Shown here: positions 29,555 to 31,917 of the stretch, in pieces
Numbering within the stretch: position 1 is the stretch's first letter
How the letters are laid out: each line of letters starts with the position of its first letter
Origin: Candidatus Afararchaeum irisae
Lineage (GTDB): Archaea; Halobacteriota; Halobacteria; Halobacteriales; Afararchaeaceae
Assembly (NCBI GenBank): GCA_034190545.1
Contig: JAXIOF010000014.1
Location: forward strand, 1 to 64,000
Reading direction: 5' to 3'
DNA length: 64,000 nucleotides
Made by a program: the position numbers and the translations under genes
The notes under the pieces: generated by a model
The model's database searches: none
Seen by the model: the letters and a program-made list of their open reading frames with translations, nothing else
Told to the model about the DNA's origin: nothing

Positions 29555-29643
29555 AAATATAGAAAGAAAAATATACGCTCGTCAAGTATATTCGAGTAAG
29601 CGAGGGCCGGTAGCTTAGCCTGGCTTAAAGCATCGGGCTTTTA

Positions 29644-30094
29644 AGCCTTGTCAGATCACATGGCAGAAGAACACCCCAAACAGAAAGGCATTAAGACAGA
29701 AGCCATACTCCTCTCGGAGTTGGTCAAGAGGGATCTGACTGTCTTAACGCCGTTTGGGGACAATGAGAGATACGACTTCGTAGTTGAAGTCGAGGGTATC
29801 TTCCATCGTGTACAGGTCAAAACCGGACGATGGGAAAACGGAGGTGTAGTCTTCGAGACCCGAAGTACGGGGATTCACACCTACAAGACAGTACGTGACA
29901 CCTATCAGGGTGACGCGGATCTCTTCGGTGTGTATTCATACGAGGAAGACACCGTATACATGGTTCCGGTTCACGAGACGGGGTCATCGCAGATGAAGCT
30001 CCGTGTCGACGATCCCGGTATCAACTCGCCCAATATAAACTGGGCTGACGACTACACCCTCGACTCTTGGATCGAAGGTCTGTAAGGCGAAGAC
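29644..30094 (+). other. ORF-bearing archaeal tRNA intron with a canonical bulge-helix-bulge
   Basis: Intron at the canonical 37/38 position. The junctions form a strict hBHBh' motif: anticodon stem TCGGG/CCCGA; 3-nt bulge ACA (30093-30095) containing the 3' cut C^A; 4-bp central helix CTTT (29638-29641) with GAAG (30089-30092), including one G-U pair; 3-nt bulge TAA (29642-29644) containing the 5' cut A^A; and intron helix GCCTT (29645-29649) with AAGGC (30084-30088). This is the substrate of the archaeal splicing endonuclease. At 451 nt it is far longer than usual archaeal tRNA introns because it holds a whole nuclease gene. Confidence 0.92.
29660..30085 (+). CDS. Intron-encoded PD-(D/E)XK homing-type endonuclease
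   Basis: 141 residues from the ATG at 29660 (a TTG at 29648 is an in-frame alternative). The fold signature of the group I intron-associated PD-(D/E)XK family is visible: helix Glu14, Asp39 in NERYDFVVEVEG, and Gln52-Val-Lys54 in HRVQVKTGRW, followed by a strand and YQGDADLFGVYSYEEDTVYMVPV. I-Ssp6803I, encoded in a bacterial tRNA group I intron, belongs to the same fold. Here the ORF lies entirely inside the tRNA-Lys intron, and its TAA stop (30083-30085) overlaps the intron helix strand. Stand-alone relatives exist in haloarchaea. A homing role, cutting intronless tRNA-Lys genes, is inferred; the DNA target is not known. Confidence 0.88.
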   Translation: MAEEHPKQKGIKTEAILLSELVKRDLTVLTPFGDNERYDFVVEVEGIFHRVQVKTGRWENGGVVFETRSTGIHTYKTVRDTYQGDADLFGVYSYEEDTVYMVPVHETGSSQMKLRVDDPGINSPNINWADDYTLDSWIEGL

Positions 30095-30130
30095 ACCCGA
30101 GGACCACGGGTTCAAATCCCGTCCGGCCCG

Positions 30131-30207
30131 TAACGGAGTGAGGTAACCGACGATTTTGAACCAGGGAAGGAACTGACCGTAGTTCAAATCCCGTCCGGCG
30201 CGTAACG
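30131..30207 (+). repeat. Partial tRNA-Lys 3'-end duplicate with the same 38-bp element
   Basis: After the tRNA 3' end comes a 24-bp spacer, then the 38-bp block 30155-30192 (containing CAGGGAAGGAACTGACCG), identical to 17299-17336 on the minus strand beside tRNA-Ser. It runs into a second copy of the tRNA-Lys 3' end (30183-30207 duplicates 30111-30135, 24 of 25 bp, period 72). The arrangement is the same at both tRNAs: tRNA, 18-24 bp spacer, common block, cognate tRNA 3' end again. Confidence 0.82.
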
Positions 30208-30264: not shown

Positions 30265-30720
30265 ATGGCTAACTCGTCTTCTGATACATCTTCTGACTCC
30301 GGCGGTGGAGACCCCGAGGAGTCGGTCCGTAAGGCTGTCGAAAGGTCATAGTCGGGAGCTCCCGCCGCGGGAGCCGTGGTGCGTGACAGGTTCGAGACCG
30401 ACGAGGTCTTTCAGCGTATACTTGCCGACGCAGACCACGAGATTGACACGGGCTTACGTGAGCTCTTCTACAAGGCGGTTTTCGCGGGATTCATAGTCGC
30501 GGGTGTCGTCTGGATCGACTTCGCGGCGCGTGACACCGTCTCACGTCTCGTGATAATCTATATGGGCTTCCTAGCGATACCCTCGGGGAACCTGTTCCAC
30601 GTCGTCGTCTCGTTTACCGAGATGGTCTTTCTGGTTCTCGAAGGTCATATACGGTTCGTGGCGGGGTTCTCCAACTTCGTCCTTCCCGTTCTCATGGGTA
30701 ACACAGTCGGCGGTGTCTTA
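30265..30720 (+). pseudogene. Formate/nitrite transporter family pseudogene, 5' part
   Basis: Frame from ATG 30265 encodes a Ser/Asp-rich leader, hits an in-frame TAG at 30349, and continues in the same frame as GAPAAGAVVRDRFETDEVFQ with ADADHEIDTGLRELF, the N-terminal signature of haloarchaeal formate/nitrite (FNT) transporters. It then jumps straight to the second half of the channel (ARDTVSRLVIIYMGFL, SFTEMVFLVLEG, LPVLMGNTVGGVL); the first few helices are missing, as if lost by recombination between the similar LFYKxxFAG-type stretches of the two halves. The frame is cut by the IS at 30721 and resumes at 32161. Confidence 0.82.
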
Positions 30721-30867
30721 CGTTGAGACAGGCGCAAAGCCCCGTCCTTCAGGGCGGGGATACGCGCCGTAAACTTGGTTTGTCTTCGGCACACGGTGCA
30801 TAGCCCGATATTCCCACCGGAAGTGCGTAACCATTTTGCCTACTACTGTCGATATACAACTGTAACC

Positions 30868-31917
<1,050 letters not shown>

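Follow-up and report, generated by a model that had tools for sequence, protein, structure and literature searches.

Structure of the split tRNA-Lys(UUU) gene

The analysed stretch of DNA (64,000 nt, referred to as the window) contains a tRNA-Lys(UUU) gene that is split by an intron. With introns allowed, ARAGORN reported a tRNA-Lys(ttt) with a 451-nt intron at positions 29604–30130 of the forward strand; neither ARAGORN without introns nor Rfam reported this gene. The 5' exon (29604–29643) extends up to nucleotide 37 and the 3' exon (30095–30130) from nucleotide 38 to the discriminator base. Both were assigned from the ARAGORN call and the cloverleaf, the former also from the sequence itself. 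The intron between them (29644–30094) is further supported by the predicted fold and by a junction test. Splicing at 29643/29644 and 30094/30095 yields a 76-nt tRNA in which 21 of 21 cloverleaf pairs are Watson-Crick. Its anticodon loop reads CUUUUAA, which places the intron at the canonical 37/38 site.

Both exon-intron junctions meet the strict hBHBh' criterion. The motif comprises the anticodon stem TCGGG/CCCGA, the bulges TAA and ACA, a central helix CTTT/GAAG and an outer helix GCCTT/AAGGC. The 5' strand of the BHB and its closing stem is located at 29638–29657 (CTTT, bulge TAA, GCCTTG-T-CAGATC) and the 3' strand at 30077–30095 (GGTCTGTAAGGC, GAAG, bulge ACA), both on the forward strand and both assigned from the MFE structure of the pre-tRNA and the junction test. 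The MFE structure of the whole 527-nt pre-tRNA retains the cloverleaf and the BHB, except that the first central pair is not formed. In this structure CAGATC/GGTCTG lengthens the outer helix to 12 bp. The ends of the intron thus close the nuclease ORF described below in a hairpin, the stem of which takes in the final codons of that ORF and its stop. When intron ends were drawn at random, the strict motif (a 4-bp centre and an outer helix of at least 5 bp) occurred in 64 of 200,000 draws, a chance of about 3e-4. The fold of the pre-tRNA had a z-score of -6.1, which is only indicative because the shuffled controls keep neither the ORF nor the tRNA. The sequence itself shows a tRNA-Lys(UUU) gene interrupted at 37/38 by an intron whose ends form a strict BHB; that this intron is spliced out is inferred.

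The intron-encoded nuclease

The intron consists almost entirely of an intact ORF for an I-Ssp6803I-like nuclease of the PDDEXK_5 family (29660–30085, forward strand). The protein has 141 residues when read from the first ATG at 29660, and 145 residues from a mechanically assigned TTG start at 29648; the stop codon TAA occupies 30083–30085. The ORF leaves about 25 nt of the intron uncovered, 16 nt before it and 9 nt after it. Inspection by eye for an internal promoter of the ORF revealed only TTTTAA at 29639–29644, too near the ATG to be convincing.

The assignment of the ORF rests on Pfam, PDB, alignment and model evidence. The Pfam profile PF11645 (PDDEXK_5) matched with E = 1.2e-37 and 129.4 bits against a gathering cut-off of 26.1, and the sole sequence match in the PDB was I-Ssp6803I (PDB-entry 2ost, E = 4.5e-9). 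A superposition of the AlphaFold model (mean pLDDT 83) with the same entry gave E = 1.1e-9 and a TM score of 0.71, with resolvases far behind. In an alignment of 17 sequences E18, P35, D43 and Q56 were invariant and K58 was present in at least 90%. PADLOC returned a single match for the protein, 'homing endonuclease'. The closest relative shares 57% identity, so the nuclease is well diverged and recent mobility is not shown. The identity of the ORF is established by sequence, whereas cleavage of DNA by its product is inferred.

The first-pass annotation, made from sequence alone, had claimed that removing 29644–30094 leaves a perfect tRNA-Lys(UUU), that the junctions form a strict hBHBh' motif and that the 451-nt intron holds a complete ORF for a nuclease of the I-Ssp6803I fold. 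All three claims held, the first by ARAGORN and the complete pairing of the cloverleaf, the second in the junction test and, apart from the open first central pair, in the full-length fold, the third by PF11645 and 2ost. It had further called the intron mobile and protein-spliced; mobility is strongly implied by the co-occurrence data given below without being shown, and splicing remains an inference. Three observations had been named that would refute it: a second intact tRNA-Lys(UUU) gene, which was not found genome-wide; a false join of unrelated halves, which is rejected as the halves form one perfect tRNA; and relatives of the nuclease that never occur at tRNA sites, which is contradicted by 81 of 89 loci near tRNA genes.

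The host genome and the sequence around the gene

The host assembly (Candidatus Afararchaeum irisae, Halobacteriales) comprises 1.90 Mb in 117 contigs and is 98.9% complete. Genome-wide, 37 tRNAs scored above the cut-off, among them one tRNA-Lys with the anticodon CTT. A second tRNA-Lys(UUU) gene was not found in this 98.9%-complete assembly. Since the split gene is the only Lys-UUU gene found, it must be spliced for AAA codons to be decoded, and the long ORFs of the window alone contain 63 of them. Two further tRNA genes of the host carry introns at 37/38, Met (33 nt) and Trp (126 nt), and the cell must therefore splice BHB introns in any case. RtcB is present in the genome. No match to EndA was obtained in the assembly, either with the PF01974 profile, which was positive in controls and in relatives of the host, or with the Haloferax EndA protein. 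A gap in the assembly or a divergent enzyme could account for this, and the missing match stays a hole in the case. Several expected tRNAs (for example Arg-UCU, Gly-CCC, Leu-CAA and Glu-CUC) were absent from the genome-wide matches; these may fall into gaps, or their genes may contain large introns and have escaped the scan for that reason.

Downstream of the tRNA gene a degenerate second copy of its 3' end together with 6 nt of flanking sequence was identified by local alignment (30182–30207, forward strand). It matches 30110–30135 at 25 of 26 positions, with 46 nt between the two copies. Aligned with the whole tRNA it scored 43, compared with at most 33 in 2000 shuffles. This repeat could be the remnant of a duplicated tRNA target or an att-like scar, although neither reading is more than a possibility. 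Further downstream, 30376–30726 encodes only the C-terminal part of a formate/nitrite transporter, matching PF01226 at profile positions 131–232 alone, and is directly followed by a gene of the IS605-type OrfB/TnpB kind at 30775–31917. The transporter gene was probably broken by this insertion element.

A family of tRNA-linked nucleases in Halobacteriales

Relatives of the nuclease were present in 190 of the 394 genomes of the order. Elsewhere in the phylum, outside Halobacteriales, PF11645 gave only matches below the cut-off. The contexts of 89 non-redundant loci were examined; 81 have a tRNA gene no more than 1 kb away, and in every one of these the nuclease is on the strand of the tRNA. It is usually positioned just 3' of the tRNA, at a median distance of 146 nt. 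Proximity to a tRNA would be expected for some 3% of loci (a rough estimate, based on about 45 tRNAs in 3.5 Mb).

The clades of the nuclease tree track the identity of the adjacent tRNA (Lys-UUU, Asn-GUU, Pro-UGG and Asp-GUC); the tRNA label changes 8 times on the tree, versus 49.7 times in shuffles. The Lys group, including the nuclease of the window, forms one branch with a support of 96/83, within which the window protein is the sister of the free-standing nucleases. This sister position makes capture by the intron most simply a derived state. No other nuclease embedded in an intron was found among roughly 90 contexts examined in the order, and the captured state was seen only in the genome of the window. 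The association with tRNA genes expected by the first-pass annotation thus held, with the qualification that the relatives in the order stand freely beside the tRNA and not inside introns; among them the window is an exceptional, captured state. A family of tRNA-associated nucleases linked to tRNA introns goes beyond what that annotation had proposed, and is the larger finding.

The Pro and Asp clades adjoin intronless tRNAs. Many Pro-clade nucleases are long ORFs (L007–L012, L089–L092 and others), and in L007, the only one tested, two PDDEXK_5 domains are fused in tandem. In Halobacterium sp. CBA1126 (L006, around 1908–1922) a short 3' scrap of tRNA-Pro lies upstream of the nuclease, with no intact tRNA in the locus. 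In many loci an Asp-clade nuclease lies between a pair of same-strand tRNA-Asp(GUC) genes (L017, L018, L088, L100, L102–L104, L107 and others), as though a duplication of the target tRNA had enclosed it. ARAGORN calls including tRNA-Arg(ccg) i445 (L012), tRNA-Gly(ccc) (L078, L085) and tRNA-Val (L134) were discarded as probably false, since they fall on coding DNA or have odd introns.

Co-occurrence of nuclease and intron

Lys-clade nucleases occur in 11 other genomes, in every case as a free-standing gene beside a tRNA-Lys(UUU) that itself contains an intron. These introns are of the BHB type, 34–39 nt long, free of ORFs and located at 37/38. Across the order the 37/38 intron of tRNA-Lys(UUU) was found in 36 of 394 genomes, and the gene is uninterrupted in most others inspected (by a search pattern that also catches Lys-CUU). 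The intron thus accompanies the Lys-clade nuclease in 11 of 11 cases compared with 25 of 382 genomes without it (raw Fisher p = 8e-13, kinship ignored). Within Haloferax (genus g50) the intron was present in 4/4 nuclease-plus and 1/8 nuclease-minus genomes (p = 0.01); the corresponding counts in genus g17, 4/4 and 5/14, are weak support (p = 0.08). Among the genomes sampled, chromosomal tRNA-Lys genes next to a Lys-clade nuclease were never intronless. This pattern is the one expected if carrying the intron gives protection against the nuclease, and if loss of the nuclease may leave the intron behind.

The link is looser for Asn than for Lys. The adjacent tRNA-Asn carries an intron in 15 of the 20 Asn-clade loci retrieved; the remaining five nucleases adjoin an intronless tRNA-Asn, and one of these nucleases contains an in-frame stop. 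A survey of the 394 genomes found the tRNA-Asn intron in 66, many of them without a nuclease nearby.

Relatives were also retrieved from viral contigs of IMG/VR. Three of these (L171–L173) contain a tRNA cluster with an intronless viral tRNA-Lys(UUU), and some 140 nt downstream of this tRNA they encode a protein 47% identical to the window nuclease. The anticodon stem of this tRNA ends in CGGG/CCCG, like that of the window, whereas most haloarchaeal hosts have CTGG/CCAG. Further relatives are located among viral tRNA-Asn or tRNA-Ser genes. In one contig (L176:1938–2441, IMGVR_UViG_3300022821_000003) the anticodon loop of a bacterial-type viral tRNA-fMet is broken by 429 nt, nearly all of which is a PDDEXK_5 ORF; the ends of this insert pair with each other, and no group I intron match was recognised in it. 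That viruses carry the nuclease family is a plausible inference, and no more than that at present.

Comparison with known systems

The closest characterised counterpart is I-Ssp6803I from a group I intron in a cyanobacterial tRNA-fMet. The two proteins share the PD-(D/E)XK homing endonuclease fold and the D...QxK motif. The gene for each lies in an intron that interrupts a tRNA anticodon loop, and the anticodon region of the host tRNA gene is the probable target in both; I-Ssp6803I reportedly cuts this region of tRNA-fMet (Bonocora and Shub 2001). The host genes differ, cyanobacterial tRNA-fMet in one case and archaeal tRNA-Lys in the other, and so does the mode of splicing: the cyanobacterial intron is a self-splicing ribozyme, whereas the intron of the window lacks a ribozyme and has BHB ends suited to splicing by proteins.

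Archaeal rRNA introns of the BHB type encode LAGLIDADG homing endonucleases (PMC4496867; PMC6125680), as the first-pass annotation had stated. They resemble the intron of the window, for which splicing and homing are inferred, in being protein-spliced with a homing endonuclease gene inside, and differ in the host gene (rRNA instead of tRNA) and in the class of nuclease (LAGLIDADG instead of PD-(D/E)XK). BHB introns bearing such genes were found described only in rRNA; the open-access literature searched contained no earlier description outside rRNA, and subscription papers were not covered. The novelty claimed for a protein-coding BHB intron in an archaeal tRNA is within this limit likely.

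The small 37/38 BHB introns of haloarchaea, such as the 34-nt intron in Haloferax tRNA-Lys(UUU) (L001), share the tRNA, the position and the BHB geometry with the window. They are only 34–39 nt long and ORF-less, with the nuclease outside the tRNA, in contrast to 451 nt with an ORF. A similar arrangement is known from collaborative homing in phages, where a free-standing nuclease acts together with an ORF-less group I intron (reviewed in PMC3984707). There too the nuclease lies beside an intron at its presumed target, and the intron may later capture it. The present case differs in that it concerns archaeal BHB introns in chromosomal tRNA genes.

Proposed mechanism

Taken together, the intron of the window is best explained as a tRNA-specific homing endonuclease gene captured in an archaeal BHB intron. 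We consider this explanation likely; cutting, homing and splicing are inferred, and there are no cleavage, transfer or splicing data. We propose the following course of events. The target of the nuclease would be tRNA-Lys(UUU) DNA without an intron, cut in the region of the anticodon loop by analogy with I-Ssp6803I and tRNA-fMet. An intron would split this site and render its bearers immune. Repair of the break from an intron-bearing donor would then copy the intron together with the neighbouring nuclease gene, that is, by collaborative homing. In the lineage of the window, illegitimate recombination would have placed the nuclease inside the intron and created a mobile intron in one piece, a route that has been proposed for group I introns (PMC3984707). 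Splicing of the pre-tRNA by the archaeal splicing endonuclease and RtcB would make the insertion harmless.

A bolder reading extends this to the whole family. Haloarchaea and their viruses would host PD-(D/E)XK homing endonucleases that target tRNA genes, with one clade per tRNA, and that drive both the acquisition and the spread of BHB introns by collaborative homing. The window would represent the capture step, by which an ORF-less BHB intron becomes self-mobile while still being spliced by proteins, and the family a selfish-element cause for archaeal tRNA introns. The balance of evidence tips slightly in favour of this reading. The homing proposal gives no account of how bearers of Pro- and Asp-clade nucleases are themselves immune.

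Alternative explanations

The ORF could be a chance insertion or a passive passenger in a spliced intron, with a nuclease that is not, or no longer, homing here. In favour of this, there is a single captured case among the genomes of the order examined, identity to relatives reaches 57% at best and biochemical data are lacking. Against it, the clade of the inserted gene already resides at tRNA-Lys(UUU) in 11 other genomes, and the active-site residues are intact. A random passenger would not be expected to match its host tRNA, and we regard this explanation as unlikely.

It also appears improbable that the nucleases beside tRNA genes derive, as cargo or as remnants, from elements or viruses that integrate into such genes, with introns gained by integrase-mediated exchange and not by homing. 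The 26-nt duplicate of the tRNA 3' end downstream in the window, the many Asp-clade nucleases between two tRNA-Asp genes and the relatives in viral tRNA clusters would fit such an origin, and intron gain via integration has been proposed for tRNA-Thr of Caldiarchaeum (PMC3293823). The intron, however, contains no integrase, and the gap between tRNA and nuclease (median 146 nt) is usually too short for one. Moreover, the insertion is at the anticodon loop and not in the 3' att region, and the insert is a nuclease alone, with the fold of a homing enzyme specific for the tRNA anticodon region.

A third possibility is that the protein acts on RNA or DNA as a tRNA-related factor (a toxin, or one of maintenance or defence) and stays beside its target tRNA gene for regulation. 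The constant same-strand place beside tRNAs and the absence of introns from the Pro and Asp clades speak for it. We consider it very unlikely, since a DNA homing endonuclease is the top match by structure as well as by sequence, PADLOC gives 'homing endonuclease' alone and the distribution is patchy within genera.

A false join of two unrelated tRNA halves with a nuclease gene between them, introduced during assembly or binning, is conceivable in a 117-contig assembly without reads to inspect, but is practically ruled out by the single, fully Watson-Crick-paired tRNA that the halves give, by a strict BHB at the junctions that chance would rarely produce and by an intron position identical to that of related introns. 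A group I intron was rejected: Rfam gave no group I match up to E = 1, and the roughly 25 non-ORF nucleotides leave no room for one.

Implications for archaeal tRNA introns

The origin of archaeal tRNA introns is an old open question, and a role against the integration of mobile elements has been proposed for them (PMC4090602, PMC3293823). Should these introns be spread, or selected for, by tRNA-specific nucleases, this question would become testable in culturable species, for example in Haloferax, in which species both with and without the intron already exist, some having the nuclease and some lacking it. As far as our searches show, the window would contain the first protein-coding archaeal tRNA intron and would be a natural record of a free-standing nuclease fusing with an intron that is spliced by its host.
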